Source: Chrysomallon squamiferum
Taxonomy: Eukaryota > Mollusca > Gastropoda > Neomphalida > Peltospiridae
Direction of reading: 5' to 3'
Length of the DNA stretch: 64,000 nucleotides
Assembly (NCBI GenBank): GCA_012295275.1
Contig: CM022673.1
Location: 6,153,811-6,217,810, forward strand
In this document: positions 22,276 through 55,791 of the stretch, in pieces
Layout of the letters: every line of letters starts with the position of its first letter
How positions within the stretch are numbered: position 1 is the stretch's first letter
Notes under the pieces: model-generated
Told to the model about the DNA's origin: nothing
Seen by the model: only the letters and a program-made list of their open reading frames with translations
The model's database searches: none
Position numbers and translations under genes: made by a program

Positions 22276-25200
22276 TAACATAAAATAATAGTAAAGTGTA
22301 CAAAATTTCTTTAGGCTATTGTTAGCTACAAAATTGATATATTTAAATTTTAATGTTTAAATTTCATGCATTTATTAATAAATCCCTACTGATGACACAT
22401 TTCTAAGAATAATTTTATATTTATTTTTGCTCTTCTTTTCATAAGAACCAAATTTTATTAATATAAAAATGTTTTTAATTAAATACTTCATTTTAATTTT
22501 ACACTGATAACTATATTTTAAATAATTACCTTTGACTTTTTCCCACCAACAGGAGACAAAGATGTAAAACCATCAGGCTTTCTCCACCTCTGTGGAGCCT
22601 TCTTCTTGTACTGGGTGACATCAGGGGCATCAATCTCTCCGTCATTCATGTGCACTTTGAGACATACAGACGCATCTAAACCACTCATGTCTGTAGGCAG
22701 ATTTGCATTTTTCAGTGGTCGAGGTGTCTGAAAATGAAAAAAAAACAATTTAAAACAATAACAAAAATTTAACGGTTATTACACTAAACTAGGTTTTCTC
22801 AAACATTTCAATCTTTATTATAAACAAATAAAAATCCCTGCATAATTTTGCCATTTTTAAAAATTCCGCTATCACAGAAAAAATGACTTTAATATTAAGT
22901 CTGATAACAAAATGTTTATAAATTTAGAAATAATTTATTTTACTACTAAATTTACCATTGCAACAGGCCAGTCATTCTCAAATTCCATTTCAACAGTTTC
23001 AGAATCTGCATACACTGTGTGAACTCCCATTCTATCACTATGTTCAACACACACTATTTTCCTTATAAACAAATCCAAAAGAAACAAGTCTTCTAGAACT
23101 GGAGAAACAGCAGACAACCTTCTCCCAAACAAACTTTAGCTTGAAGTACTCTTGGTTACAAATAATTCTGTTTTTAACTTGGATTTCATCCTCCCCAATT
23201 AATAAACAGAAGATTGTCTGAACTTAGATAAATGTTTGATGTTGACAATTAGATGGAAAATTAAACACAAATATTAATTTAATCTTCTCGTTATGTCTTT
23301 AATTAACAAAATTAGTCAATGCTTTTAAAACATTTTATTATTAACTCCTTTCATTTGAGCTTTTATCCTTCCCCTATCATTAACTGTGAAAAGACACTAA
23401 TAATAAATCTTCTTGCAAATGAACTATGTGAAAAAATGCCTAGCAAATTAATATGTGAAATACCTCAATAACTTTGATGAAATTAATGCTTACACCTTCC
23501 TGAGAATAAAATTAAACAAAGTGTCTCAATATAACTGTGAAGCTAATTATGAGGAGTTTAAAATACAGAGTTAATCTGGTTCACAAAAGCTTGACCCGTT
23601 AAGGATTAAATGGTTAATCTGAATGACTTTATTTACAGAAAGAATTAAGACCTCATTATAACACTCTGGTCCTTTGTTCCCACAAACAATGAAAAAAAAT
23701 ATACTTTACATTCCATAAATGTTGATGTTTAGTTTTCTTATTTCTAACATTAAACATCAGCTTAACTTTAAACAAAAAAAATAAAATAAACATTATAAAA
23801 ATAAAAACTAATGACTCTAAACTGTGAATATTTAATTCATCCAGAAAATAGTTGGATATAAGTAAGAAAATAATTAAAATGAATTTCTAAATACATCTGC
23901 CCTCAACAAAAAAAATATAGTAAAATTAATCTAAAAAAAACACTTCTGCCAATCATTATATTATTACTTACTTTTGGATAACTGTTTTTCTTTTTACTTT
24001 TAGTTGGCACATTCTCCTTATCAACCTTCATTTTTGATGACTTTTTCCTTTTTGGAACTGTAAAGAAAAAACAGATATTAATATCTGAAACCAGTTAGAG
24101 TGAAAAAATATATTGATTAAATATTAATAAAAATAAAAAAAAAAAAAAATACACCCATTTCTTTCATATGGCTTATTAGTGTTACTCTAAGAACAAAAAC
24201 ATTAACATATTTTGAAGTTTGTAAAGATATAATAAAATGTTAATTCTAAATGAAGACTTCCAACTTTCATTTGATCATAATTATTTCAACAATATTTGTT
24301 TAATGACTTACACAGAAATGAATTTAAGGATAAAATGATTTCTGAACACAAAGAATAAAAATTAATGATAATAAAAAAAATAATAAATAAAAAACCAATA
24401 TAAGAAGCATTTAAAACAAACAAACAAACAAACAAAAACCCAGAAAGGAAATGATTAGAAAACATTCAGTGAACAACTAACTAAAATATCTTGATGTGAA
24501 AACAACAAAAAACCAAACAAAATGCATATGGAAAAAAAAAAAAAAAAGAAGAAAGAATGAAAACAAGAACAAAAATTACTGAAATGGTGAAGATGAAACA
24601 AACAAAAATGAACAAATTAAATGGAAAATCCAAACAAACCAAACAAGAGTGACCATCATGCAACATGCAGAAACACTTCAAAATCACAATACCTAGTTTA
24701 TCTCTGAAGTGTCTAAGCTTTTCCTGAAATGATCTCTGTCTAACTAACTTGCCTTTCGTGCCTGTCTCAGTACTTGGAATAATGGAGCTGGTTTCCAAAG
24801 GGCTCAGCCTTTCCTTGGATCCATCTACTGTAACAAGCAAGGAAGGGTTACGATCAAAAGAATCTGAAATACTGTAGTCCAGCAACGATGAAGATGAATC
24901 AGAATCAGAACTACTGCTGTAGTTGTAGCTGTCTGACAGTTCTGAACTACTGCTGTCCGAATCAAAATAATCAGTCTCTGTCCATGACAATCGACTGGTT
25001 TCAGCTACATATTTTCTTTTTGTTTTTGATCGACGATGCCTCACTTTTCCAGAAGGTTCAGGATCATTGTTGACAAGGTCTAAAGCACTGACACTTTTAA
25101 CTGGTGACACTTGGTGTTTGTCACATGGTTCTGATGGTGCATCATCTATGAAAGGTATGTCTCTGTATGGCAGTTCTCGAAAAGATTTTTCTTTTGTGTC

Positions 25201-27237
25201 TTTTTGATGGGAACATGGCAAGTGATGAAGTGATTTATGTAATGGTTCATGCAACAACCTTTCTTCTGTTTCTTGCTTGGGTCGAAATTCAATTTGGTTT
25301 ATGCCTGGCAATTCATGAAAAGATTTATGTAACAAATTTTGGTTTGTGCATGGCAATTCATGAAAAGATTTATGTAATGAATTTTGGTTTATGCCTGGCA
25401 ATCCATGAAAAGATTTGTGTAACAAATTTTGGTTTGTGCATGGCAATTCATGAAAAGATTTATGGAACATATTTTCATTTGTGTCCATTTTGGTTTCATC
25501 AGTTTGATTAGTAACAAAGGACTGAGTTCTGGAAAACACTTCATTTGTTATATCTGATGTTGTAGTGTTGACAGGGTTTCTCTGATGATGCCTGCCACTG
25601 CTGTCTGAGGAGGAAACCTGCAATCCAGTATGTGTGGTTGTGGAACAGTGTGACAGTACAGAATCAGGTGAACTATCCAGATTCATTTGAGACAATTCCC
25701 TGCTCTTCACATAAAGTAACTGCTGGCCTGCCAAAGTGCTTGGGAGAGAAAGAACATTCTCTGAGACAGATTTAGAAGGGGGACTTGTTATAACAGCACC
25801 TTTTTCACTAAATGTGTTTTCACGTCCAGAACTTTCATTGATATCACATGATGTATTCCTACCAGAAAAATGATAATTTTTTGACAAAGTGGATGCAGAT
25901 GATTCTGTAAGTCTCTCATTAAGCTGTGAGATTGACTTGGTAAGCTCATTAATTGTGTCTCTAAATCCAGTGACCATGTCTTCAATGCAGGCTATGCTGT
26001 GCCGATTGTCTGAAGATGACTTGTGCAAGGCTGATGTATCTTTTTGCCATGAGCCACTGAATCCTGAAATGTCATTTTCAGATGTGTAACAGCTTGATGA
26101 ACTCAGATCCATCTCTTGTGAAAAGCTGTTCATACTGTTATCGTCAACAGTTTTTTTCCTAAGACTTCGCCTAATTGCTTGCTGAGATGACACTCTCTGA
26201 AATGCACTAGCTGAACTTAGGATCAGCTTCGAAGATGGCACAGATTGTTTTGTGTCAGCTCTTTTGAGAGCATCAATCATCTTGTATTTGGCTATTGGAC
26301 TTACCAGCAGATGTGGGCTGGAGAAGTCCAAGGTTGGAACTGCAGATATTCTTGGAGTGCTAACTGCTGTGTGATTGATTGTCACTGGTTTTATTGAATT
26401 AAGACTCTCAGACATAGTTTTAGACTCATCTTGAACACTGTTTTCACTGTCCATGCCGGATTCAGAACAAACTGAAAATGTCAATGATCGTCTTGTCTGT
26501 TTCGTTAACAAGTCTGTCTGAACCTGTGATTCTTTAACTCTGTATTTTCCTGAATCATCCTTAATACTGTCTTTGGCACGATGATTAACAATTTCTCTGG
26601 TAACATCAAAAGATGAGCCAACCAAATCAGTTTTATCACATTTCAAAGGAACACACACTGTATCCCTTTCTAACTCAATACTGACTGCTGTCTTTTTACC
26701 ACATGCTTTGAGAGACATTGGGGTCGATCTCACTGAACAATCAACAGTTCCACACTCCACACCACTGTCCCACAGTCTTGAGTCACACTCTCTTGGCATG
26801 GGTGAATATTCCTTATTTACTGTAAGATTCAGTGGCATTGTGCACTTTGGAGACTGTACTTTGTTAACTTGGTAATCCATACAGATCCTTGAATTCACCA
26901 AAATGTCAACAATTGGACTCTTTTCAGGATCCATTGGACTATTGTTAGGAGCAGGTGGACTTTTTTCTGGTATGACCTTCAGAGGTGGTGAGGTCATGAT
27001 ATTAAACCCTACCAATGATGGAGGTGATGACATGCTCTCATATCCTGCCACCATTGGTTCTTCTTCCTTTTCCATAATCTTCACGTTGTTCTCTATAACT
27101 GATTTCTCAATTCCTATGCTGGGAACATAAAGATCTGTCTTCCTTCTTGCATATTTGTTAGCCATTTGAAGCTCACGTTCAGAAATCTCTCCAAAGAAAA
27201 CTTCTTCATCATCATTGCAAGCTTCACCAGTAAACAT
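20663..27237 (-). CDS. Uncharacterised large Ser-rich, probably cell-cycle protein (tentative GTSE1-like N-terminus)
   Basis: Coding exons: 27237-24693, 23098-22956, 22727-22530, 22189-22078, 21502-21396 and 20770-20663. All have GT-AG sites and compatible phases, giving about 1,070 aa. A further exon at 24057-23972 is listed separately. The ATG at 27237 lies 21 bases inside an exon whose acceptor is near 27259, so a 5' non-coding exon lies upstream. The N-terminus reads DDEEVFFGEISERE, which resembles the acidic DDEVFFG block I recall from GTSE1; this is a weak, tentative link. The large exon is Ser/Thr/Pro-rich with many SP and TP sites. It holds a 15-residue tandem repeat near residues 580-670 and a Ser/Asp run near residues 770-800. 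The penultimate exon contains KVSW, a fit to the RVxF-type PP1-docking motif. The end is basic (TRTRRSKTLFRK). I do not recognise a catalytic domain. Gene structure is well supported; function is inferred. Confidence 0.72.
22204..22275. repeat. (AAT)n microsatellite in an intron of the large gene
   Basis: About 20 AAT units just downstream (on the minus strand, upstream) of the exon at 22,078-22,189. Confidence 0.95.
23972..24057 (-). other. Candidate cassette exon with KEN box and basic NLS-like stretch
   Basis: An 86-bp exon with a strong acceptor (pyrimidine tract then CAG) and donor (AAAA|GTAAGT) sits in the intron after the large exon. Joined to that exon (one base left over) it reads VPKRKKSSKMKVDKENVPTK and onward, ending NSYPK. 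It holds a KEN box followed by Pro, the usual form of an APC/C degron, within a lysine-rich, NLS-like stretch. Its length is not a multiple of three. If followed by the exon at 23098, the frame runs into TTC TAG at once; if skipped, the large exon joins 23098 in frame. So either it makes a short isoform, or a small exon is missing from my model, or a weaker internal donor is used. Confidence 0.55.
25200..25500 (-). repeat. In-frame 45-bp tandem repeat inside the large exon
   Basis: The translated sequence repeats HKSFHELPCTNQN-like units every 15 residues, at least four near-identical copies. CT and GI variants alternate (ELPCTNQ, GLPGINQ), so a 90-bp dimer is the higher-order unit. Further decayed units follow (HKSLHHLPCSHQ, KSFRELPY). 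Copy number is likely polymorphic. Confidence 0.85.
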
Positions 27238-28621
27238 TTTAATCTGATGCTTAAATCTGAAAATGTAAATAAAATAAATATATGTATGTTTCTTTCTGTT
27301 TATATCCCTTTTCTGTCAAGACAAAACTGAAAACAGTGCATTGAGATTAATGTAAAATAATATACAGTTGTAGTTGTATTGACTATTGTTTTAACACTTA
27401 CACATATTTTGACAAATAACTACAATCAACTGTAAAATATTTTAACTACAACATGGTTTCTGATTTTTAAATGGCATATTATTATTTGATATGAATATCT
27501 GAAAGAAGTTAATTTTACTGCACCTCTTGTTTTTAAGATTTCACAAACATAAAAAGATATTTAAAATAAAATGTTTCTGAATAGTGAGTAATTCTATTTT
27601 AGACAAATATTTATCTCAAGAGGGCTTATTATAATAAAACAACAATATTTGTAATACAGATATTATTGGTCAATTCACTGAATGATTTTAACCTAACTCA
27701 GGTTTTGAAAAAAAAAAAAAAAAATTAAAAAAAATAATAACAATAATAAATTGGTGTACAAGTTTGTTTTTTTTTTTTTTTGTCTCAAATGCAAAAATAT
27801 CAAATAATACCTTTATTGTACTGATGTCTTTTAATTATTTAGTATCTAAGACGCTAGTGATCAATCTTCAATATGTTATAAGACATTTCTAAAAGTACTG
27901 GTCAGATAAAGGTAAAATTTGACATTTAGGGTTTGACATAAAACTAATTTGTAAGTTGAATACCAATTTTAACCGAAATCTTAATCGACTGGGTTACAAC
28001 TTTCCATTTTATGACAGAGACACTGAATTCAGTATTAATTAAATTAATCAATAATCGTAATCACTAAATCAATTATATTCTCATAATAACGCTAACAAAT
28101 GTTATCAATTTAATATTTCAGAACTTCAATCTGTTATGATATACATAAAACAAATGATATTACAATTACAGCAGATTATAATTTTATTTAAAACAAGACT
28201 GCTAGTGTTATCACTGATACACAAATCTGGAGTTGTATTTTACGGAAGACAATGGAAATGGATTATTTTTACGAACATCATTAAAACATTTCTATAAATT
28301 GATATATGACATCATTTAAATAAAATCTAATTAAGATATTAAATTACTTGGACATGAAACACCTTAATAAATAAACTTTTATAAAGATGAAAATACAATC
28401 AGTAAACTGAATGTCTTCTTTTGGAAAAGAAACGAACGGGGAACCTGCAGACTGCTCGATAAACAGTTTTTCAGTTATAAAAAGGAATATATTTACATTA
28501 ATTTGACGAAACAGTTTATACAGTATGTGTAACAAAATAATAATATATACAGCCATTAAATATACCGTAAAAGAAGCAAATAAAAGTGATAATAACCATA
28601 AATTATACGTAAATAACATAC

Positions 28622-31637: not shown

Positions 31638-33139
31638 TTAATCATAGAAGTCAACATGTGCAGCATTTTCGAATGTGTCTGCTTTCAGAATCTGAATAAA
31701 CTTCAACACACTGGTGTTACATGACAGTATAGTATTCTTTGATATCATTTCTGAAAACACAAGAAAAAAAAAATAATGTAATAAAAAAAGATAAATAAAA
31801 TTGTTTTTTTTTTTTTTTTTTTTTTTTTTATTAAACTAAGGAATTATTCAGTTCTAAATGTATCTATTTGTTAATAATATTATTATAAAAAATAAACACG
31901 GTATTTGGTTTAATGTAGTGAAGGCTGGCTTCTAAGACATGTTCATAACTAGTATCAGCAACAACAGCATCAATGATGATAACCATCAACAACCACTAAC
32001 AACAACATCAACACCATCACAACCAAGAGCAACGACAACAACCATAAATATACATTTTTGTTCGTTACATATTTGTACATACCTTTGAATGAATTACGCA
32101 TTTCTTCATCTTTTGTGTCAAGTAGTGCTGTTTTTGTCACCATGTCAGTTAAAAGTGGACCTGGTGCATAATTCAACACTCGTATCGTTGGATGTTCAGA
32201 TGCCAGAACTTTAAAGTACATGTCACGAGCTGCTTTGCCTAAAATAAAACAAAAAACATGATGATTTAAAAGTACATGCTGGTCATGGCTACATGAACTT
32301 GAATGGAATTTCTAGTAACTGAGAAAGAGATGTTTCTGATCATTTTCAATAAACTGTATATTTTTATTACAATTAATTATTTTCTGTTATCACAAAAATT
32401 ATTACATATTTTAACATAAAAAATATCAACAACAACTGTAACAAATAACTTATCAACACTTTGAAACTTCTTCTCATTCATTATATGAATAATAAGGTTG
32501 TACTGTTATTTGAATAATAAAAGTATGGCGAGTTTCTGTAGCAAATTTAATTAATATAAGGTAATAAGAAATAAAATAAATTCTTGGATAATCATAAAGC
32601 ATTAAAAGCACATGATACTCACTAGAGCAATATAGAGCCCAGCTTTTGACTGGCTGTATTGCAGCTAAAGATGAAATGTTGACGACAACTTTTTGTGCAA
32701 CGTTTTTAAAAAGTCGTAGAAAGCTAGCATTCAAAACTACAACACCGGTCACATTAACATTGTAATAATTTGATATTCTCTGGACGGATATCAGATCTTC
32801 CGTCATTTCACACTCCAGAGATCCGGCATTGTGAATAATACAAGCTTGTTGAAATTCATCAGCTTTAACTTGCATTTCTTCCAGGCACGAGGGCAGAAGA
32901 GAATCAAAAACTTTCTGATCCCCAGTAGCCTGGTCAAAACACCTGTATACGCATTTTTGAGTGATTGTTTGTTTGACTTCAGAAAGCAAGTTTTCGTTTC
33001 TGGCTAATAATATAAATACCGAATCTTTAGTAAATTCTTTTGAAAAATTCAAAGATATGCTTCTGCCTAAGCCCCGACTGGCACCAGTTATTATACACAC
33101 AGTTTTCTTTGAAAACATTATTGTTGTTTGTAGTACCAT
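31638..33139 (-). CDS. SPR: Sepiapterin reductase
   Basis: Three exons: 33139-32623, 32238-32083 and 31750-31638. They total 786 bp, giving 261 aa, the same length I recall for human SPR. The enzyme is an NADPH-dependent short-chain dehydrogenase that completes tetrahydrobiopterin synthesis in the cytosol. Visible motifs are the cofactor loop TGASRGLG near the N-terminus, NAGSL, the catalytic Ser in VVNISSL, Tyr and Lys in YCSSKAARD (split by intron 1), LNYAPGPL, and the C-terminal AHVDFYD whose Asp binds the pterin in the family. The protein ends at that Asp, without the final Lys of the human form. Met at 33139 gives the family length; an in-frame Met at 33118 is an alternative start. All junctions are GT-AG and in phase (donors GTGAGT, GTATGT). 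Confidence 0.95.
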
Positions 33140-33217
33140 ATGTTTTCAATATCCCATGGAAGAGAGATAATTCCAAAAATATTTCAGAGTTAAAGCCCTT
33201 TGAGCGTTCGTTTAAAC

Positions 33218-37918: not shown

Positions 37919-40900
37919 GATGTATTTTATTATACTTTAGCTACAATCTAAAACCAAAATAGATAACGCTGTTGAAAAACTGAAATATTTATCATCCAGT
38001 GAATACAGAGTACTGTAAATTTGAATCTAACTAAATAAAATTATATTTTTAAAGTTTATTAGATACATAATGTAATTATGTTTATACTTACACAAATTAT
38101 GAAATTTGCAACTTATGTGAATATATTTAAAACAAAAATCTTAACCTAACAATTATTATAAATGTTAATGTATTACTCTGCTTTCAAAACAAACAAAAAC
38201 AAACAAAAAAACCCAAAGAAAAAGAAAATAACAATACATACAAATTTAATGTCCTCCATAGATAGAGGATATTTTGATTTCCACATTGATCCACCACTTA
38301 ATATTTCTAACAAATCTTGTACAGTACCAACCTATATTCATGAAAAGTAAAAACACAGTTTAATAAAGACTAAAAATATGTGGTGGACTTATAGTTTAGA
38401 ATCAAAGTTGTTTTAAGTATCATTAGAAGAGAAATATTTGCTAAATATCTCTTTTTTTTTTTATACAATTAAAGTAATTTCATTTTACATTACAAAGGAA
38501 TAAGAAGTAATGTATTTAATTTTTTAAACAAACAAAAAATCAGTAATACTATATTCAATAACAAAAACAACAAGAGAAACATGATATAAGTAGAACAAAA
38601 ATTAGGAGTAAATTATGTACTTACAAGATTCATGTCCACGTTGCCGTATGGATATTTTGGTGTATTCGGTGGTATTGGCTCAGGAGGCAACACATAGTAC
38701 TGAAAACCAAATAATTTAAAAATAATAATTTTGTAGAATTCTTTACATGAAAGAAAAACAGAAAAACACAGACAGACAGACAGATAGAGAGAAACACTCA
38801 GATTTGCATTTAAGATCTTTTATTTTATTTTTAACTCATTTAATTAAATATAGTACATATTAAATGTGATATCAAAATAAAATAAAATAAAAAATTTAAG
38901 AATAAATTGAAAAAACAGAAGAAATACATCATTCACCTAAAATGAAAATAATTTAAACATTTTATACCTTTGAAATAACTTGTCTGATGGCAATGTATTT
39001 ATCAGTAATATCACCACTTTCATTCAGGGGTGCATCATAATCATAACTGGTTGGAACAGGCCCATATGGTGGACCATTGGCACCTGTAACAGTCAAAAGC
39101 AAACAGCCCATAGGTAAAACACAAAGAAGTACATAATTACATTTTAAAATGCCAAACAAAATATTAATTAATTAATAATGTTTAGAAAACTGAACTAACC
39201 ATTCCAATATCCAAAATTGGTTCCACCTTCAAACATATACCTGAAATTAAAAATAGGTGTTATAACTATATAAAAATTCTATTTTATTCCAATTTCTTGT
39301 TATGCAGCATCAAACAATAATAACAGATTCCTATATGTATATAATATACAATTCACTCTAACTACCATACATATACAAGCAGTATATCAAAGGAAATAAT
39401 AATAATAATAATAATAATAATTAAAAAACACACTTTCCTTTGTGATGATGTACATGGATGAAACCTATCCTAACTGCTTCTCTCAGCATTTAATATCACT
39501 ACATCTTTGAAAAAAACTTCACACATGACTAACAAAAAAAAATAATATCCGTCTTTTCGTTCAAATTCGTAATTCTGAATAACTGTTTACATAATTTACA
39601 GTTAAACTTGAAAAACAAACAGCAGAATATCAAAGCCTTTGAATGAAAACTGAATTAAATATTTCATTATTTTTATTATTATTTTGTTCATAACTTGCTT
39701 CTTTAAATACCTCTAAACATGTTAAATACCTTTGATTTTCATTAACATACCTCATTAGCTGCACTGTCAGATTTCCAGGCTTTGTCAGTCATTATCATTA
39801 TCCTAATTCATATCATTACTAATCTATTACAGAGAGAATGAAACAGATCTGATTTCAAGAACACTGTTTGAAATTAAGAATACCCATACCAAAATACCCC
39901 AAAACATCGTAAATTATAGACTGACATGTTAACATTAGCACCAAGGTTGAGAATCTTGTCAAGGCACTTGGTGCACGGAGCCCAGTTCAGTTGTGAGTGA
40001 CGTGACCCCCAGTGATCCAGCCAGCCAGTGTAGTATTCTGAATTGACCTGAAATACAATCAGTGATGTCATCATAATTACTGTTCTGTTTTACCTCTCTT
40101 AAGTTTATTATTTTAAATCCAAATAATCTTAATTAGTAATTGAGTATAAAATTAACATTAATAGAATATTAGTATTATTATGATTTTCTTTTTTTACAAT
40201 GTTAGGTAATTGTAAAAGTTACTGTCAGAAAAATGAATCATATAAGTATTAAAAATGTACTTAGATAATTTATGTATGCCATCAAAAATTCACCATATTC
40301 ATAAAGACAGCAGGTAAATGTTTCCAGTAATTAATAACAGAGCATTAATTGTAATGTGTAAAAAGCCAGGAAGGTGTATAACTATGGTCTTGCCTTTTGT
40401 TTTATTTCTTCTTTTTTTAAATCTGGTTTTGTAACAAGGGGAATAAATTTAACAGAGGAACCAACATGGATCATAATGTAGTAATGGTTGATGGTTGTGG
40501 TGACAATCATTATGGTAGTAATAATTAGATGACTATTATTCTTTTACATTTAATTTTATTAATAATAAAAAGAAAATATGTTTGACAACTGTTTTTTGTT
40601 TTTTAATTTACCAGTGGTCCATTTGGTTCAAAGTCTCTCTGAAATTTGAAGTTCCTTGCTGGGTTATCTGTTAAATTAAGTAAAATAAACACATAAATAA
40701 TTTTAAGGTCGTTTTATAATTTTATTTTAGTAACGAAAGTAATTTAATAGAAGTAATAGTGATAGTGCTTGTGGTAATGGTAGAATACTTGTAATGATAT
40801 TTCAGTAATACTAATAACTGAGCTGCAGTACTAATATTAATCATAGCAGGAACAGAAGTAACTGATGGAAGTAGAAGAACTGTTAGTAGTATTAGCAATA

Positions 40901-43508
40901 ATAATAGTAATAAGGAAGTTATTACCTTCAACAGTAATAGTAGTATCACTAATAGTAATACTAGCAATGTTTATAGTAATAATAATAATATTAGGAATGT
41001 TTGTAGTAATAAAATTAATAGCAGTTAAAGTAATTGGTGTTACACTGACTGTTGAGTTGATTTAATAGATGATATAGAAAAAAGTACAAACTTGTGACAC
41101 CAAAATCTACAGTGCTGTAAACTCCTTTGAGTGTCCCACATCTTAGGTAGGAGTCAGCATCTCCATCAGTTGTGTACAAAACTTGAGTGGGACCCAAAAT
41201 ACTCTGTGCTTTTTCATGCAAGAAACTTAAATATTCGTAATCGCATGCAAAATAGCTTCCATACTCATTCTCGATCTGCAAGACAGAAATCGTAAGAAAA
41301 GCCATGCATCTATGAAAAATTCAGAAGCATGGGAATGTAAATACGGGATGGGTAACCAGGTAGTCAATGTAGTGAATAATTTTCTTCTTCCACAGATTAG
41401 AAGGCTGTTTTGCAAAATTGTGTGAAAAATATTTTTAACTCAAGGCATTTTTGCTTAAATGGCATACACCACCAGAACTGCTGGGGAAACTAATATCTGT
41501 ATGCTTGTCATATTCCAATTCCAATAACAGGTCAAAAAAGTGTGGTGAAATTCAGGTGTCTGCATTTTGTCTTTAATAATACAGTCAGTGTGTATGAATT
41601 GTTGCAACTTCACCTTTTCTGTTCCATTCTTTGACTGACACAATATCAGCAACTATAGCAGATTGATTTACTTAAGATGTTTGCTTTATTTATTTTTCAA
41701 TTTCTGTATGTGATGAGATTGTTTTCACTTTCATTCACTTCACTATGGCTATACTGAAAAACAAGGTTGCCACTTCTAATATAAATCTAAAGAAGAAGCA
41801 CTCATACATTAAGTACCTTATCCAACAAAAGAAAAGTGTTGTTTTCACACCTGTTAGTATGTAACTTTATCCGGGCAACCAATACTATGAATAAACTAAC
41901 AATCACAATACTGCAAACATGCAAAAAACTTATAGATATGCCACGAACCTACAGGAGCACATGAACTCACAGGTATACTATGGACCTAGGCTATAGGCAC
42001 ACCATAAATACTACTGTGAAAAATAACAAACCCTGCCATGAACCTAATCGCATACTTAGATACTACACATAGACATGCAGCAAAATATTAGTGGAAACCT
42101 AAAGGCATACCACATGCAAATACCTTGATACAAAATCATTTTTATACTAACAACTGAAGCCAAAATCAACTGTGCTGTATATTCCTTCAAGAGTCCCACA
42201 CTTGAGGTCACTATCAGAATCACCATCAGTTGTAAAGATAACAGTACTAGTACCAAGAACTCTCCTCACTTTGTGGTAAAGAAATCTTAAATAGTCATAA
42301 TCACAAGCATAATAGCTGCCATATTCATTTTCAATCTGAAAAAATTATATTGCATGATGCTAAACAATATGAAAAAAGAAATAAAAGAGAAATATATATG
42401 TATGTATATTTATATATATTGATATATAAAAGAAAGTTGAAACAATATAAAAATAAGAAAATATAAAATATAAAAACATATATATTTCATTTCATTTTAG
42501 AAAGCTTCTCATAGGAAAGGAAAGAGAATTAGGACAATTCAGAAATTTCATTCCAACCAATACACAAAGGATGAATATATGTTTTTCAAAGCATATAACT
42601 GATATAAAACTGTATTAAAGTTCATGGAAAATATTAATCATGCATGACCTATCCAATGACATTTACGAAGCATAATATACTATACTTCATTAGAAAACTG
42701 ACAGATTTAAATCGAAACAGAAATGGAATTCAAAGAAATTAAATAAAAAATAAAAAATAATAATGGTAATAACACCCTTCTACCAACAATGAAATAAAAT
42801 AAATCAAAACAGAAAAATAATTGCAATTAATCATATGTAAAAATAATAAAAACCAATGGAAAATATTTTATGCTACTTACTTGCACCATAATTATGGGTC
42901 CACCATTTTCATAGAGGTACGGTTTTAACTTTGGAAGTAAAACATCATACCATCTATCCACAGCTGACAAATAGGCTTAAACAGAAATCAGATTATTAGT
43001 GTCATTGGCAACTTTAGTCAAACATTTGATTATTTCAATTCTGAGAAATTCTTATTTGTTTTTCTGTAACAGCAGTGATTCTTTCAAGTGCATTTTACCC
43101 CTGACATGAATGAACGTGAGCACACAGCTATACACAAATATTTTTCATTAAAAAACTCCAGCCTATAAATGAAATATCAAAGCTGTGCATATTGGTAAAT
43201 ATACCTACTTGGATCTGAAGTTCTGACAACCATTTTTGGATTGATGTTTAACAACCAGGCTGGTAGACCTCCCTAGAAAACAAAGCTAATTAAACACTTA
43301 CGCCTCAGATTTATAATTTAAAATACAAATACATCATTTTATTTACAATAGAAAAAAAGAACAAAGTATTACCAAAAAGAAATTAATGTGTATTAGTATT
43401 ATTATTATGTTCTAAAAATAATTCATCAAAGTTAAATATGTAATAATTTGCAGTAATTTATATGAACTATGACAACCATAAAATCAGAAATTCTTATTAT
43501 CATTATTA

Positions 43509-43555
<47 letters not shown>

Positions 43556-45282
43556 TACCATCTTTAGAAATAGGAAATTTCTTTTCAGATATAAAACTTA
43601 CAAATTCCCACTCTCCACAAATGTAAGGACCTGATCGAAGTAAGACCACAAGACCAACTTCCTGGGCTAGCTGAAGAAACTTTTCAAGATCAGCCAGTCC
43701 TGTCCAGACATACTCCTCTGGATTAGGATTATGAATATTCCATGGAACGTAACTTGAAAATTGAGAAGATTTAAAAAAAAATTAAAAATTAAACAAAAAA
43801 CAGGTATTTTCTTTTATATATCATTTATATTATACTTGTCAGCAGTACTTTATTCTTTATTCTGATTTTCTTAATTTGTGTCAGATGAATGGTCTTTTGT
43901 ACAAGGACAAACTCTTATCAAAGAAATTAAGATCTTTTACAAGCTCTTCTTGTGGTCCAAAAAAAATAAAAATAAAAATAAAATGGACACTGGATAAAGA
44001 ATTTTATTTCAGGAAGTTACTGAATATGAATGTACTTTTTTCTAACTTACGTCTGTACTGCATTTAAACCAGCAATCCTCATCTTCTGCAGCCTGTCTTT
44101 CCAGTAGTATGGATGAACTCTGGCATAATGCAGACTGCCTGACACATAGCGGAATGGTTTGCCATCCTTCAGAAAGGTTGGTGCTGAGCTATCAATAGTA
44201 AAACTATGATTCTGATTCTGTATAAAGAGAACAGAAGAAAAAAAGAACAAAAATTACTAGTATTATTGTTGCTGGTACAACTATTGCTATGTTAAGAAAG
44301 ATTAGTACATAAAGAAGTTACTTAATAAGATATTTTTACTTCCTTGACCTTGTCTCTTTTATATAAATTATGTATTTTCAATGACCCATGATGACAGTAT
44401 AAAATCACTGAACAGAAAAGTAATTATTAATAAATATAAATTATTACATATGTATTTATATGAATCAAAAGACATTCAGTCCCAGAGCCAGATGAGTTAA
44501 CACCCATAAGTTTGAAGATATTTAAATAAAATTGACAAAAATATCATATTTCACAAGTGTCATTAAATCCACTCCAAATGTAGGCATTTTAAAATTTTCA
44601 AGAAAACGTCAACCTTAAGCCATAAAATCCTAATTTCAAGAGGTATCTTTATGAAATTTTATCAAATTTGCACAATCTGTTAAGTAAAGTGTTCTCTTTT
44701 TAATGACTTTAATAGTGGTAGATTTAACTTAATTAAATATTGTTTTGGGCCTATTTCAACTGATATATGAATGTGAGATCATGCCTGAGTAAGATCTGTT
44801 GTTCATGAATTGATATTTTTTCTATTATTTTGATGTTTACTCGTGAAGACGACCGTACAAAATTGTCGTTCCTGAGCGGTTACCTTTTTCGCTTCATTTT
44901 CATTTTTCTGATTTACAGTTACGTTTTTATTACAAATTCCCCTAACAAAATATTTGATCTCATTCTGGTTTTAAACATAAAGTAAATTAACGAAACATTT
45001 TGAGTTTGGGTAGTCGTCAATTTCTGAAGAAAACAAGTGGTAGCATGCGTCCCTAGCGGCGGTTAGCATGGCTACATTATGACTTAGTCAAATTAGTGAT
45101 AATGCTAAAGTATATTCAGTTTGGAATATGAAAATTATTAACAATTTCACAAACAGAAACAGCATCATTTGTTTTAAAAGGATATTTATGAATATTTATT
45201 TTAAATTTACCAAACAACACGAAATCGGAAATAACACAACTAAAATCAAGCCAAACAAATATCCGCCCCTAGGAAGATCCAT
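34921..45282 (-). CDS. GLB1: Lysosomal acid beta-galactosidase (GH35)
   Basis: Seventeen exon positions, all phase-checked: 45282-45211, 44217-44051, 43752-43602, 43272-43209, 42975-42881, then 42335-42152 or 41275-41092, 40667-40612, 40047-39926, 39240-39200, 39083-38968, 38699-38625, 38331-38242, 37766-37659, 37069-36935, 36565-36456, 35857-35737 and 35190-34921. The sum is 1,977 bp, 658 aa; human is 677. The enzyme removes terminal beta-galactose from GM1 ganglioside and keratan sulfate in lysosomes. Exon 1 encodes a signal peptide of about 24 residues. The TIM barrel follows: [43 protein letters not shown], acid/base Glu187 in IENEYGS, nucleophile Glu267 in [14 protein letters not shown], and [10 protein letters not shown]. 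The C-terminal beta domains include [10 protein letters not shown] and a Cys pair in MSCGNKIC. The duplicated exon 6 is the notable oddity. Confidence 0.96.
37861..37914. repeat. (GA)n microsatellite in a GLB1 intron
   Basis: About 27 GA units. Confidence 0.97.
41092..41275 (-). other. GLB1: GLB1 alternative exon 6, 3' copy (184 bp)
   Basis: Acceptor TTGCAG, start ATC GAG AAT GAG, end GTC ACA A|GTTTGT. It encodes [19 protein letters not shown], then [18 protein letters not shown] and YSTVDFGVT. Length and phases equal those of the 5' copy (codon A+AT = Asn at the junction). By eye, about 40 of 61 residues are identical between copies. Differences cluster in the segment after YL-FL and around TTDGD. 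No stop or frameshift; both catalytic and Cys residues are kept, so it does not look like a pseudo-exon. Confidence 0.92.
41925..42115. repeat. Degenerate minisatellite in the intron between the two GLB1 exon-6 copies
   Basis: Several imperfect copies of a block like GAACCTACAGGCACACCAT occur here (for example near 41947, 41985 and 42035). The rest of this 876-bp intron (41276-42151) is less AT-rich than most introns of the gene and holds no coding exon I can see. Confidence 0.45.
42152..42335 (-). other. GLB1: GLB1 alternative exon 6, 5' copy (184 bp)
   Basis: Acceptor TTTTTTCAG, start ATT GAA AAT GAA, end TTC AGT T|GTTAGT. It encodes [19 protein letters not shown], then [18 protein letters not shown] and YSTVDFGFS. 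The catalytic acid/base Glu, its neighbouring Asn and two Cys (ACD and KCG, likely a disulfide) are intact. Exon 5 ends in phase 0 and exon 7 needs one leftover base, so this copy fits both neighbours (codon T+AT = Tyr). It resembles the human sequence slightly more in YLRFL and LKCG. Confidence 0.92.
43494..43556. repeat. (ATT)n microsatellite in a GLB1 intron
   Basis: About 20 ATT units, starting as ATT/ATC. Confidence 0.95.
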
Positions 45283-49093: not shown

Positions 49094-52000
49094 ATGATAT
49101 CAAAGATTCTATGTCTGGCAGTGATGTCTGCTCTATATTTTGAAGTTGGTGAGGGTAGAAATGCTTTCAGACTTATGTTTCCTGAAAAATACCCAGAGAT
49201 GTTACAAAGTGGAATTGATCCTGGGGAACCATTATTTCTCACCCCATTAATTGAAAAAGGAGAAATTAAAAAAGGTTAGTGTCACAAGGTATAAAATTTT
49301 CTTTATCAGATATTAAATAATATTAAATAATATTAATTTAAATAATGTTTTTTTTTTGTTCAGTTTCAAAACATTTGTTCTTTTATCAATCTAACCATTC
49401 ATTTGTTTGTTCATTCTACCTTTAATTTAGATTACCTTGTATTTTATGTATTATTGTATTATTTGGATATATAATTTTATAAACTATTAAATCATAATTT
49501 GTTGTTTTGTTTTAGCACGATATTTATCAATGAATCATCTGCCTATAGATATTAGAGGATATTCTGGATTTTTCACTGTAAATAAGACAACCAACAGCAA
49601 TATGTTTTTCTGGTTTTTTCCTTCCCAGGTATTAACATAATATTGAGATTTGCTTGCATGTGATTTTTGTTTTATAAATTTGGTTTCTTTCCTGATTGAA
49701 CACTAATTAAAAGCATCAGAATGGAAATAAGAGCATTTTTTTTTCCAAAACAAAAATAATTTAAAGAAAAAGATAAACAAATAATAATTATAAAAATATA
49801 TATATATATATTAGTAATATTAATATTATATATATATACATTTATTTAGACTCACCCAGTCAATGCACCTGTCTTGCTATGGCTGCAAGGAGGTCCTGGT
49901 GGATCCTCATTGTTCGGTCTGTTTGTGGAAAATGGACCACTAGGTGTTGATGCAAATGCAGAGAGTGAGTATAGGTCTTTTTAAAAAAAAAAGATTAACC
50001 AATTTAATATTATTTTAACATGAAAACAGAAAATTTCAGCAACTTGAAGGTTGACTTTTCAATAATTTTCAGACAGTACACAGTTAATAGTTAGATTCAA
50101 GTAAACAATAAAAATTAATAGTTGTATCAGGGGCTAGGAGGTGCAACTAAGATTAAATTGTTTTTCATAAAACAGAAGGGTTAACTATTAATTATTCCTT
50201 ATTTAATTTTTTTTTCTCTTCTTTTTATTCTGCAGCATATCACAGAAATATTACTTGGAATTCCAAATACTCTATGCTGTATATTGATAATCCAGTTAGT
50301 ATTATTTTTTTCTTCAAAAGACAAATGGTTGGCCCAAACTTAGCTACATGGTCCTGTAAAAAAACACCAAAGACAGTAAAAATAAAATACCAACAAAATT
50401 AATTCAGTTAAGGATGTTTGTACTTTATAATTCATATAATGATTATGGATTTTCAAGCATTTATACTTTGGAAACAATAATTTTTATAAAAAATTTCATT
50501 CAGTGAATGTTGAATAAATTATAAGTTAGGTAATACTTATCTTGCAGATATGAAAAAAAGAAAGAAAAATTTGTATATTATGTTTTTGACTTTGTTAATT
50601 TATGTAGGTTGGAACTGGATTTAGTTTTACTGAAAAGGATTCAGGTTATGTGACTAATGAAGATGAAGTTGCAAGAGATCTGTACAGGTACATTTAATGC
50701 TATATAGAAATGACTTTAGTACATTTTATATACATCATTGTTATTATGTTTCTTTCTGTTTGCAAGTCTTTTCTAATAGTAAATCATAATAGTAAAAACT
50801 TGCAGGTACACACAGGAACTGGAATTTCCCTCTTTTTAATGATGACAGTTGTAAAGAGAAATGTTAAAATACATTAACATATTAGTCTTTTTGCAGTTTC
50901 ATTATTTTTTAGTAAAAAAATGGTTTTATTAGTTAACATACATACACACTCAAATATACATATTAAATAAATAAATAAATAAATAAAAACGTGAAATTTT
51001 AAGATTTTAATTATTTTTCAGTTGTCTGACTCAGTTTTTTACAGTATTTTCTGACTACAGGAAAAATGATTTTTACATTACAGGAGAGGTAAATAATATA
51101 TTTTAAAAATATCCAGTATATTCTGAAATAATACACTGCAGCTTTCAGATGTATTAATATTAGTTTAAAATTGATATACAAGTACTTTTGTCAGCTTATA
51201 TTAACTTAAATGCAGATCAGTAATTTCAGGATTATTGTTGGTGCTTTTTTTTAATGTTATTGCCTATTCAAGTTTATCAGAGACCTAGACATTTGTTTAA
51301 GTCTTACTTTAGATACGGGTTTTTGTACCAACATTGAAATTATAAGACAGACACTAAGAGTTGTTAATCTCTTTATATTACTAATATATGTTAGGGAATT
51401 TTTGCTTTCAGTCGTATGCTGGCAAGTATGTGCCTGCCATATCTTACAAAATCCACAAAGAGAATCCTACAGCAAAGGTTAAAATAAACTACAAAGGAAT
51501 GGCTATAGGAGATGGGCTTTGTGATCCTGTAACAGTGAGTAAAATTACACATACGAACATGCATGCATGTGCACTGGCACAAGCACACATACAAGCACAA
51601 ATATGTAGATATGCATATAACATTATCTCAGCATTTTGATATGATTAGTTTTATTATTACTTATTATAAGCATTCTTTTTATTTTTTTCCAGATGATGTC
51701 CAAATATGCAAACTTTATGTTCAGTATAGGTGTTTTGGATGAAAACGAGAGAGATTATTTCCAAAAGGAATCTGATTTGGCAGTGGCTGAAATTAAAGCA
51801 GGACATTATATGGCTGCTTTCAAGGTAAACATTTATTGTTAATAATGGTTTTTCATAATGAACTCTAAGTGATAAAAGCTAAATGTAAAAAACTAATAAT
51901 TCGAACTGTAATTTTTTATCATGAATCTTGTTAAAATCATTAATTTTATTTTTATCATTAATTGTAATTTGTTGTTTTTTTCAGCAGTTTTATTAGTGTT

Positions 52001-55000
52001 GCACTACTGACTGGGTAGCACTAAGAATAATTTTCAAAAGTATCAAACATTTTTGTTGACAGTTGAGAGGAAACCAGAAAACCTGTTTCCCATAATTTTG
52101 ATTTTCAGTTTGATAAATGATGTATGTTATCATGTCTCTTTGCTGATAAGTTATCTGTATGAAATTTTTATGTGTCTTTTGTACTCATTTTCATTTGAAT
52201 AATAATCTTTTACATCAGTAACATTTGTCAAAATTTATAAATCTACAATTGATTTTATAGTTCTTTAATAATCCTGTTTTATCTTAAAATGGATCATTTT
52301 AAACCTTTTATATTCACTAAACTTTTTATCCAAATTTTTGTTTCAGTATTTTAACGAACTTATTTTATCTGGGAATACTTCATTTACAGCTAAAGTGACT
52401 GGTTTGCAGGATTACTATAATTTTCTTAGAACTCAGGTAGACTAAGAGGTGTTTGATTTTCAGTTTGTGTTGTATTTTGTTTGCTATGTAGACACTACTA
52501 TTGTCTGCCTAACCCTTTAGTACTTTGAAATATGTTAGCAGTGCAGAGAAATTGGTGTGTGAAACTGTTTTTGACATATAATGGATTTGAAATCACTTTT
52601 ACTGAACAGGAAGGTCTCTTCTTAATTTGATAGCTTTGGGGTTTTGTATGGAAAGTTTTCTTGTGTTGTTAATAATTTCTTTGTTAAACAGTTTGTGATA
52701 ATTACAAAATCAGAATTGAATGCTCTTTAAAAATGCTGAATCAACCAGTCACCATGGAAGATTACTTTATGTTAATATTCGTTGAATATCAGAAAATGTG
52801 GTCAAAAAGGACACTTTGTTAATCTGAAGATATGGAAAATAAGTGTAAGGATTTCAAGATAAAAGTAAAATGCAAAAGTGATGTAGCTACAGCTGGAAGG
52901 ACAACTGTACAGACAAAGAACTTAGACATCAGACATCTTCTGAAATGTCACTTCTGTATAAAGGACATATTTTGAAATGTGGTATACAGAGATGTGATTA
53001 AATATTCCTATTTTTACTTGCAGTATTTCGATAGACTTCTCAATGGTGATATGACTCCATATCCCCCATACTTCCAGAATGTGACAGGCTTGAATTTTTA
53101 TTATAACTTTCTTTACTCCAAGGTAATTGTTACTACTAAATTTAACTTCAGATATATTTTGTATAATTATTAAGAGACCATTTGCAATTTTTAATCAATG
53201 ATTTCTTTAATTTTTAATGTAACATTGGATTTTTCAGTTCATTTAAAAATAATATTGTAATTTTATATATGACACAACAATAATCAACATAAAAATATAT
53301 GAATGAAAAAAGAAAATAATAAAATAAAATTTAAAAAGAGAAAAACCAAATTAACCAAATTTTATTATTGTCAGACTATTAATCTTCTCTGTAATTTCAA
53401 AATGCACTGCTATCATAATTTCAAATTTATTAATCTTAACAGTCCAGAAATCTAACACTTCATCTGCATGTGGTATTTTATTATTACTCTATACATTTTT
53501 ATATTCTTTAATTTACTACACCCAAACCTTTTAGGAGAGCACAGTTAATATATGCATTTTCATTTCTATCAATCTACTAAATGAAATTAGCTTATATTAC
53601 ACATGGATGTACCAAAGTATGTAAGATCTATGTAACTAATTAATTAGCTTACTGTTCTTAACCTTTTTAACAACCTAACCTGTTTATTTATTAATGTTGC
53701 AGTTTTCTCTTTTAGTCAGTATTCATTGTTGGAATAAAAGTATTTTAATGTTCAGCTGTGAAGGTACAAACAAAAATAGTAAATATATTTTATAGATTTA
53801 AAAATTCTTACATTAGTCCTTGCTAATAATAAAGTATAACAAAGAAGAAGCTGGAGGAGTTGGAATTAATTAGCATTTTTTATCTTTCGGGATATGTAAG
53901 GCAATCATTCATACACTTTTTGCATGTTTACCATTGCCATTTTTGTTGGTCTCTAGTATATATATTTCTGTATATCCTCATAGGCTTGTAGTATTATTTT
54001 CATATTTTATTATTAGCAAGATATACAGGTAATATAAATTAATAAAATAATTACTTGGACATTTACAGAATATATTTAAACTATTTCTTTCTCCAAACTG
54101 ATGCAAAGATAATATATATATATAAATATTATAATAATAGATAAATTAGGATACAAACTGTTTTGGGTATTTTTGTTTATAGGTTCATATAATTTAATAT
54201 TTACTATAAATATAATAAGTAAGCAAATCATTAAATAATAATATTTGTATACATAAATGATGGAAGATAAAAAAAAAAAAACGACTAATATCTATCAGTC
54301 TTTTCAAAATTATAATTTTCTTCTTTATTAGTACTGGTATAGCTTTTTGTCTTCAGTCAAACTAAGTAATAGTCACTACATTTAGGCACCAGCAGAATTC
54401 AGCTACTATGGACACTTTCTAGCCCGACGTGATGTGCGTTGTGCAATCCATGTTGGCAGCTTGAAGTACAATAATGGTGATGAAGTAGAAAAACATCTGC
54501 TCAATGATATGATGCAATCTGTTAAAGACAAAATAGCTGTTATTCTTGACAATTACAAGGTTTGTTTAAAAAAAAAAAAAAAAAATACATGCTGATAATA
54601 TATTATAACTTATGATTTTAGTCCAAAAATAAAGGAACGTACTGTCATTTTTTTTACAAAGAAATGAAAAGTAATAACTATTATTAACTACAAGATTCCA
54701 TTACAGCTAAATATTTGCTTACAAAAGTAAGGTAAACAATATGCAAAGTACATAAAAAAAAGAAAATGGCAGTTTGTGGACATGCTGTGTCATTGGCATT
54801 TTATCAGATTACAACAGATGTATTTTCATCAAAAAAAAAATGTAAACATGGACATACATATTAAGTTCAAACTATTTGTTATTCATACCTTGATTTTCTA
54901 TGTATTTTATCTAGTGATATAACATTGTTACTAATCTTGTATATTTCAATGTGTTTTCAGGTTCTGATCTACAATGGACAGCTGGACATCATTATTGCTG

Positions 55001-55791
55001 TACCACTTACTGAGTCCTGGCTGCAAACTGTCCAGTGGTCAGGGCTGGAACAGTACAAGAAAGCCCCCAAGATCATATGGAAAATTCACCCACATGATGT
55101 GGATGTCGCTGGTTATGTAAGAAATGTGAAACATTTCTGTCAGGTAAAACCAGCACTACCTTTTTGTTATTTGAATTAGTGTTAATTGCTTCAGATACTT
55201 TTTTTTTTTTTTTTTCTTTTTCTATTATTTCTCTTTAAAAAGGTATGAAATAGCATTTTATCATTTAATTTGTGTTTTTTTGTCATTTGATTTAAAAATA
55301 TACCATTTTGTTTTTATAATAAGTAAATATTATTATTCATCTGTAATTATATTAATTTTATAAATTAAAATTGTGGACAAATTCCAGGTTTGAAATGATG
55401 TGTTTTTATTTGCCATGATATAGTTTCAGAGAAAGAAAGAAATATTTTAATTTGTGAATCAAAAAAACGTCATTTGAGAGATCATTATTAAAAGAAATTG
55501 CAGTTTTTATTCTCACATTTAGTAAAATATATATTTTTTAGACCTTTATATTAATTTGTTTTGAAATAAAGCTGTATTCAGGACAAACCTAGGCATGCTC
55601 CTTGTGTGTGCTAGACATAAAAAGTCTTTAACTCTATTTTAGTGATGTTATTGTACATGAACTTAGTTTTCTTATACTGAAAATTATATTTCTTTCTGCA
55701 GGTTATTGTGAGAGGGGCTGGACATATTCTTCCCTATGACCAGCCTGAACGAGGAATGGATATGATTCAGAGATTTATTGAAAATCGTTAA
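49094..55791 (+). CDS. CPVL: Serine carboxypeptidase, vitellogenic-like (peptidase S10)
   Basis: Coding exons: 49094-49274, 49516-49628, 49850-49964, 50236-50294, 50608-50687, 51022-51088, 51412-51534, 51693-51824, then 52347-52436 or 53024-53122, 54386-54559, 54961-55143 and 55702-55791. The product is 468 or 471 aa (human 476). All junctions are GT-AG and in phase. An N-terminal hydrophobic signal ([16 protein letters not shown]) indicates secretory/lysosomal targeting. Family signatures in order: [35 protein letters not shown] (oxyanion region), YIDNPVGTGFSF, catalytic Ser206 in [10 protein letters not shown] (split by intron 6), [12 protein letters not shown], catalytic Asp in [11 protein letters not shown], and catalytic His in [12 protein letters not shown]. 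The exact physiological substrate of CPVL is not established. The duplicated exon 9 is the notable oddity. AATAAA at 55984 and 56561 are candidate poly(A) signals. Confidence 0.96.
52347..52436 (+). other. CPVL: CPVL alternative exon 9, 5' copy (90 bp)
   Basis: Acceptor TTTGTTTCAG, donor CAG|GTAGAC, 30 codons, phase 0 on both sides. It encodes [13 protein letters not shown], then [16 protein letters not shown]. It aligns to the same segment of CPVL as the 99-bp copy, in the cap/lid insertion of the S10 fold. Three residues shorter; it lacks the YFQN block but has a possible N-glycosylation site (NTS). Confidence 0.88.
53024..53122 (+). other. CPVL: CPVL alternative exon 9, 3' copy (99 bp)
   Basis: Acceptor TTTTTACTTGCAG, donor AAG|GTAATT, 33 codons, phase 0 on both sides. 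It encodes [18 protein letters not shown], then [15 protein letters not shown]. It matches the vertebrate segment (LLDGDLTS, YFQNVTG, YYNFL) more closely than the 5' copy. Both copies splice in frame to [11 protein letters not shown] in exon 10. Including both would keep the frame but duplicate the lid segment. Confidence 0.9.

Follow-up and report, generated by a model that had tools for sequence, protein, structure and literature searches.

Two interchangeable copies of the catalytic exon in the GLB1 gene of the snail Chrysomallon squamiferum: predicted mutually exclusive splicing, with parallels in oysters

The beta-galactosidase gene GLB1 of the snail Chrysomallon squamiferum carries two intact copies of its sixth exon, each of which encodes the active-site segment with the acid/base glutamate. 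The sequence makes it very likely that these copies, 6A and 6B, are spliced in a mutually exclusive manner, with the reading frame as a safeguard, to yield two enzymes whose sequences diverge downstream of the catalytic motif. Exclusive use had been predicted in an earlier note on this DNA, and the prediction is well supported by the frame logic, the splice sites, purifying selection on both copies and pairs of GLB1 isoforms in oysters. The window that we analysed is a stretch of 64,000 nucleotides (contig CM022673.1 of GenBank assembly GCA_012295275.1, forward-strand positions 6,153,811 to 6,217,810); positions are counted from its first letter.

The window contains a complete GLB1 gene, encoding a GH35 beta-galactosidase, on the minus strand from 45282 to 34921 (Table 1). 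The model has 18 exons in total, of which any single coding mRNA uses 17, and every intron has GT..AG borders. Isoforms A and B both score above the Pfam cut-off for PF01301, PF21317 and PF21467 (GH35 and two C-terminal beta-galactosidase domains), with near-equal GH35 scores (394.8 and 392.2 bits, respectively). The best matches of the model among solved structures are chains titled 'Beta-galactosidase', which we take from their entries and sequence to be human GLB1. Alignment of isoform A with these chains shows that the acid/base Glu (in NEYG) and the nucleophile Glu are present, and 6B carries the same IENEYGSY as 6A, acid/base Glu included. The gene product is predicted to have lysosomal beta-galactosidase activity. 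Among the best 120 of 7,975 protein matches, the leading ones are from Haliotis rufescens (65%), Lottia (64%) and Patella (63%). A quick tree of the window gene and 39 homologues chosen out of 175, built with the exon 6 segment removed, has the gene as sister to Haliotis (SH-aLRT 95), with Octopus and Argonauta far away. By its GLB1 sequence, the host is thus placed among the gastropods, that is, as a mollusc and not a vertebrate. The remark in the earlier note that no such arrangement is known in vertebrate GLB1 is therefore beside the point.

Table 1. Exons of the GLB1 gene model and the intron between the two copies of exon 6, in window positions
Feature	Position	Strand	Remarks
GLB1 exon 1	45211..45282	-	gene model; start codon; N-terminus hydrophobic, judged by eye
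GLB1 exon 2	44051..44217	-	gene model
GLB1 exon 3	43602..43752	-	151 nt; gene model
GLB1 exon 4	43209..43272	-	64 nt; gene model
GLB1 exon 5	42881..42975	-	95 nt; upstream splice partner common to 6A and 6B
GLB1 exon 6A	42152..42335	-	184 nt; phase 0-1; split last residue Y
Intron 6A-6B	41276..42151	-	876 nt
GLB1 exon 6B	41092..41275	-	184 nt; phase 0-1; split last residue N
GLB1 exon 7	40612..40667	-	downstream splice partner common to 6A and 6B
GLB1 exon 8	39926..40047	-	nucleophile Glu in VNSEYYTGW, by alignment with human GLB1
GLB1 exons 9, 10, 11	39240-39200, 39083-38968, 38699-38625	-	gene model
GLB1 exons 12, 13, 14	38331-38242, 37766-37659, 37069-36935	-	gene model
GLB1 exons 15, 16, 17	36565-36456, 35857-35737, 35190-34921	-	gene model

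The two copies have the length, the intact splice sites and the shared phases that the earlier note had ascribed to them. The borders read ttttttcag/ATT...GTT/gttagt for 6A (42335-42152) and tcttgcag/ATC...CAA/gtttgt for 6B (41275-41092), with AG and GT intact at all four ends. Each copy is entered in phase 0 and left in phase 1, and each is in frame with exon 5, which ends at 42881, and exon 7, which starts at 40667. Transcripts that contain only 6A or only 6B have an open frame of 658 amino acids each. Because 184 is 3n+1, transcripts with both copies or with none run into early stops: joining 6A to 6B gives ...FGFSYRE followed by a stop codon, and a transcript that lacks both reaches a stop at codon 222. 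The spliced models thus bear out the earlier statements that double inclusion ends in Tyr-Arg-Glu-stop and that double skipping breaks the frame. The arrangement has the features of a tandem exon pair, namely adjacent homologous exons, compatible length, phase and splice sites, unproductive double inclusion and skipping, and constraint on the coding sequence. We found no convincing third copy of exon 6 or other exon duplication in the window (tblastn with seven queries: 6A, 6B and exons 2, 3, 4, 8 and 10), and in the whole 404.6-Mb genome the DNA of 6B matches only itself.

On the reading that we prefer, exon 6 of GLB1 would have been tandemly duplicated long ago, and the spliceosome would join one of the copies, 6A or 6B, to exon 5 upstream and to exon 7 downstream. 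The two predicted 658-residue enzymes would have IENEYGSY and all residues elsewhere in common and would differ at 21 of the 61 residues, located in the helix that follows the acid/base loop and in the loop behind TTDG. Transcripts with both copies or neither, with their early stops, would be removed by nonsense-mediated decay. As both of these outcomes are unproductive, only single-copy mRNAs are useful, whichever splicing regulator acts, and the reading frame is the clearest safeguard of exclusivity. We infer that both exons are spliced in the snail, that the choice is regulated and that faulty mRNAs are decayed.

The copies are old and both are under purifying selection. They are identical at 40 of 61 amino acids and 127 of 184 nucleotides, and 57 of the 184 nucleotides differ. 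The first eight residues, IENEYGSY, are the same in both, and the differences follow in the next segment, which we take from the GH35 fold to be a helix, and around TTDGD; the alignment agrees with the earlier count of 40 shared residues and with the placing of the changes after the catalytic loop and around TTDGD. Divergence by the NG86 method (dN 0.24 versus dS 2.04) indicates near-saturation at synonymous sites together with conservation of the protein; a maximum-likelihood estimate gives dN 0.17 and dS 7.6. Differences are distributed 15/9/32 over the three codon positions of the 61 codons (chi-square P = 1.7e-5). When 56 coding changes, the same number as between 6A and 6B, were scattered randomly on copy A, 26.5 ± 2.6 identical residues were left (maximum 37; none of 10,000 runs reached 40), and a stop codon arose in 8,204 of the 10,000 runs. 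The segment of Haliotis is matched at 43 of 62 positions by 6A and at 41 of 62 by 6B, and the copies match each other at 40 of 62, so neither copy has run ahead of the other. Neither looks decayed, and both retain the two Cys residues and the catalytic motif.

This constraint bears on whether one copy alone is used, with the other a relic whose splicing has ceased or become rare. Under a generic donor consensus, the two lowest of the 17 donor scores in the gene belong to 6A and 6B (-2.0 and -1.7), and the pyrimidine tract of 6A (0.59) is among its poorer ones; by the profile of the gene itself, the same donors score 6.6 and 5.3, within the range of the others. The weak generic scores at both copies would suit a relic. 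So would the near relatives: among the best 120 of 7,975 matches, Haliotis, Lottia and Patella appear with one form each and do not show the pair, although clustering in the database may conceal isoforms. However, a long-silent exon would be expected to lose its frame, as most simulated copies did while none kept 40 of 61 residues; acceptor, donor, length, both Cys and catalytic motif are kept in both copies, and the two are about equally close to Haliotis. We therefore regard a relic as very unlikely, although the neutral simulations would be compatible with one copy having fallen out of use recently. That two haplotypes were laid in series during assembly is more improbable still, to the point of being negligible: the host genome is described as highly heterozygous (1.38%; PMC7142155), but 57 differences in 184 nucleotides are far above the allelic level and the flanking introns have almost nothing in common, with a single 17-nt match among the three introns compared (E = 0.008).

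Splice sites that are crowded together can enforce exclusive exon use by steric exclusion. The copies here lie 876 nt apart, which makes enforcement of this kind unlikely. Competing base pairing between introns is another possible mechanism, and is no defining feature of exclusive exons; the duplex energies of three intron pairs, computed from the single sequence, fell within those of shuffled introns and revealed no excess of pairing (76, 42 and 82 of 100 shuffles were as low or lower). Regulation of the choice by splicing factors would be the natural expectation.

The exchangeable exon 6 seems not to be unique to the snail, as oyster entries show it too. Three pairs of oyster GLB1 isoforms are alike throughout the aligned sequence outside the exon 6 segment and differ inside it: X3 and X4 of Saccostrea echinata (P0029 and P0027; 604/604 outside, 42/62 inside), X5 and X6 of S. 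cucullata (P0034 and P0032; 605/605 and 44/62) and X3 and X2 of Magallana gigas (P0031 and P0061; 600/600 and 39/62). These names are database labels, and the pairs are known from protein entries, not from gene layout. In two of the three pairs the segment is the sole difference, as predicted for the snail; in M. gigas, X2 also carries 17 extra residues inserted at another place. Inside the segment, the X3/X5 type exceeds its partner by two residues, whereas 6A and 6B are of equal length. Between S. echinata and Magallana, the X3-type segment is identical at 61 of 64 positions, the other type at 53 of 62 and the rest of the protein at 529 of 600. The oyster segments cluster by type and not by species in a tree of the segment, and the pair therefore predates the split between Saccostrea and Magallana. 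Oysters thus appear to alternate the same GLB1 exon. In mussels, Mytilus edulis X2 (P0033) and the mussel-type protein P0078 that groups with it match at 37 of 62 positions in the segment and at 567 of 595 elsewhere; the two may come from different species or genes, so that this case is no more than suggestive. A region-restricted protein search with 6B gave 13 matches from 17 candidates, the best 65% identical, with no clear counterpart of 6B.

The oyster pairs also help to weigh the idea that the doubled exon acts mainly as an off switch, tuning GLB1 dosage through decayed mRNA, with proteins that differ little. The early stops from both and neither would provide such a switch, weak generic donors could permit variable outcomes, and human GLB1 is described as producing splice forms sensitive to nonsense-mediated decay (PMC2631023). 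Yet control of dosage has no need for a second constrained coding copy, and the amino-acid constraint on the snail pair is strong; moreover, the oyster forms differ at about one-third of the segment, and one type is conserved almost unchanged between genera. A role mainly in dosage is therefore unlikely, and we favour two distinct, mutually exclusive coding exons.

Whether the alternative exons of snail, oyster and mussel go back to one ancestral molluscan duplication is a separate question, on which the segment tree has only 62 residues to offer, too few columns to date the duplication or to settle shared versus separate origin. A single origin would explain why the same exon is concerned in two, perhaps three, lineages, and a scallop paralogue (P0132) has SNFxCGPxPG residues like those of the oyster X3 type. 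Against it, the oyster forms group together (94/93 and 92/94, short of the threshold of the program for a firm branch, as is most of the tree), and a tree constrained to unite the oyster X3/scallop type with 6B is 26 log units worse (AU P = 0.12), and one that unites it with 6A is 29 log units worse (AU P = 0.052). The best tree of these 62 columns does not pair 6A with 6B, and a tree that does so is not rejected (AU P = 0.33 and 0.34). One ancestral duplication seems doubtful to us, and separate duplications would be the simpler reading, although deep shared ancestry of the alternative exons stays conceivable on these sequences. The scallop protein, from Mizuhopecten yessoensis, is full length, and its segment resembles the oyster X3 type (DSNFKCGPIPG, ATTDFG). 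Gene duplication may possibly have fixed one alternative form there; the segment tree does not favour uniting the scallop segment with the oyster X3-type ones (14 log units, AU P = 0.16).

Within this genome, a whole-assembly search located three tandem GLB1-like genes (C9:5.558-5.591 Mb) and, on C12, a further gene that is more distant. In the tandem genes the order of the matches to exons 2-17 is kept, and exon 6 occurs once per gene, at 184 nt, which is the exon 6 length of the family in this genome. As far as the searches reach, the doubled exon 6 appears confined to the window gene. Derivation of 6B from the in-genome paralogues is disfavoured when they are held together in the tree (AU P = 0.038); the same constraint gives P = 0.057 for 6A and P = 0.062 for all five together. 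Where the window gene has a different ten-residue stretch, the tandem genes (C9:5558000-5591000) read GPYVD(A/G)GWDF and so are without the Glu that aligns with human Glu129, hinting that their activity may be changed or lost. The C12 gene (C12:11489862-11503264) is GH35-like and has matches to several GLB1 exons.

Other coding sequence lies around GLB1 in the window. Exons of a serine carboxypeptidase (Peptidase_S10) are found at 51385-51636 and 54865-55176 on the plus strand, opposite to GLB1; human cathepsin A, of the Peptidase_S10 family, is a partner of lysosomal beta-galactosidase. Just downstream of GLB1 is a short-chain dehydrogenase exon (adh_short; 32477-33145, minus strand). A stop-to-stop open stretch of 944 amino acids (24484-27315, minus strand; no start codon required) contains repeats of the type HKSFHELPCTNQNLL and has no Pfam match at E 0.01.

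In human GLB1, Glu188 is the acid/base residue, Glu268 is the nucleophile and Asn187 binds the C2 hydroxyl of galactose (PMC6566704). The equivalents of all three are retained in isoforms A and B. Downstream of the catalytic motif, the substitutions extend as far as the loop TTDGDxDS(D/Y)LxCG and its surroundings. The human disease positions Ser191, Arg201 and Cys230 fall in the exon 6 segment (PMC6881353, PMC7504770), and R201H is described as an allele of mild GM1 gangliosidosis (PMC6881353). By alignment and residue counting, the Arg201 equivalent is Arg in 6A and Ser in 6B, a difference from which no conclusion follows because the site varies in other molluscs. The net charges of the two segments are -5 and -6, which does not suggest an effect on pH behaviour through bulk charge. 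The isoforms may differ in specificity, pH behaviour, substrate preference or stability.

Counting the residue that is split by the junction, 22 positions of the segment differ between the isoforms; the residue commonest among eight non-heterobranch gastropods occurs in 6A at ten of these, in 6B at five and in neither at seven (two assignments rest on ties). Roughly, 6A has the usual helix and a changed loop (Y226D), and 6B retains the loop aromatic and has a changed helix (R200S and R207Q; numbering of the window protein). Three positions ahead of the second Cys, the equivalent of Cys230, the residue is Y or F in 108 of 174 GLB1-like proteins and D, N or E in 11 (174 parsed out of 175 drawn from two match listings). 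The 11 are four oyster X3-type entries, P0078, the scallop paralogue, Aplysia X2, Babylonia, Solemya and two vertebrates; the D/N/E state is thus uncommon among the matches listed, and oyster and mussel entries account for five of its cases. Each of the snail, oyster and mussel pairs combines a form with an aromatic residue (Y/F) at this site and a form with D (6A), N (oyster X3) or E (mussel). Since this pattern was noticed after looking, we treat it as a lead. Molluscs (snail, oyster and perhaps mussel) might have repeatedly evolved an exchangeable GLB1 exon with an aromatic and a polar or acidic version, serving two galactoside preferences.

Comparable exchanges are described for other genes. 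Exons 6a and 6e of coq-2 in helminths, annelids and molluscs are likewise homologous alternatives that swap part of an enzyme core (PMC7434440); coq-2 is a different enzyme, however, and the effect of its exon on the product was demonstrated in C. elegans, whereas here an effect is inferred from the sequence. The same paper cites mrp-1 as a case in which exclusive exons of the same length arose independently in several lineages. Tandem duplicated exon substitutions also give proteins that are the same but for one homologous segment, and most are described as ancient (PMC9741552); those events are human. In human GLB1 itself, exon 6 is among the exons involved in the splicing of the elastin-binding protein (PMC2631023), which is reported to skip exons 3, 4 and 6 and to read exon 5 in another frame, whereas the snail exon is substituted and not skipped. 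An isoform of this kind is ruled out in the snail gene by stops within exon 5 in the shifted frame. Our search of the open-licence PMC literature found no paper on mutually exclusive or duplicated exons in GLB1 or beta-galactosidase. To our knowledge, it is unusual for the active-site region of a housekeeping hydrolase to be encoded by mutually exclusive exons.

With the snail GLB1, a known class of event would reach a new gene and, counting the oyster pairs, more than one lineage. Should both isoforms be made, snail GLB1 is two enzymes from one gene. The oyster parallel supplies natural pairs, with about 20 substitutions beside an invariant catalytic Glu, that could be tied to substrate, pH or stability. 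The 6A/6B pair is likewise a natural test of which residues near human disease positions can be exchanged, with 6B having Ser at the equivalent of Arg201.
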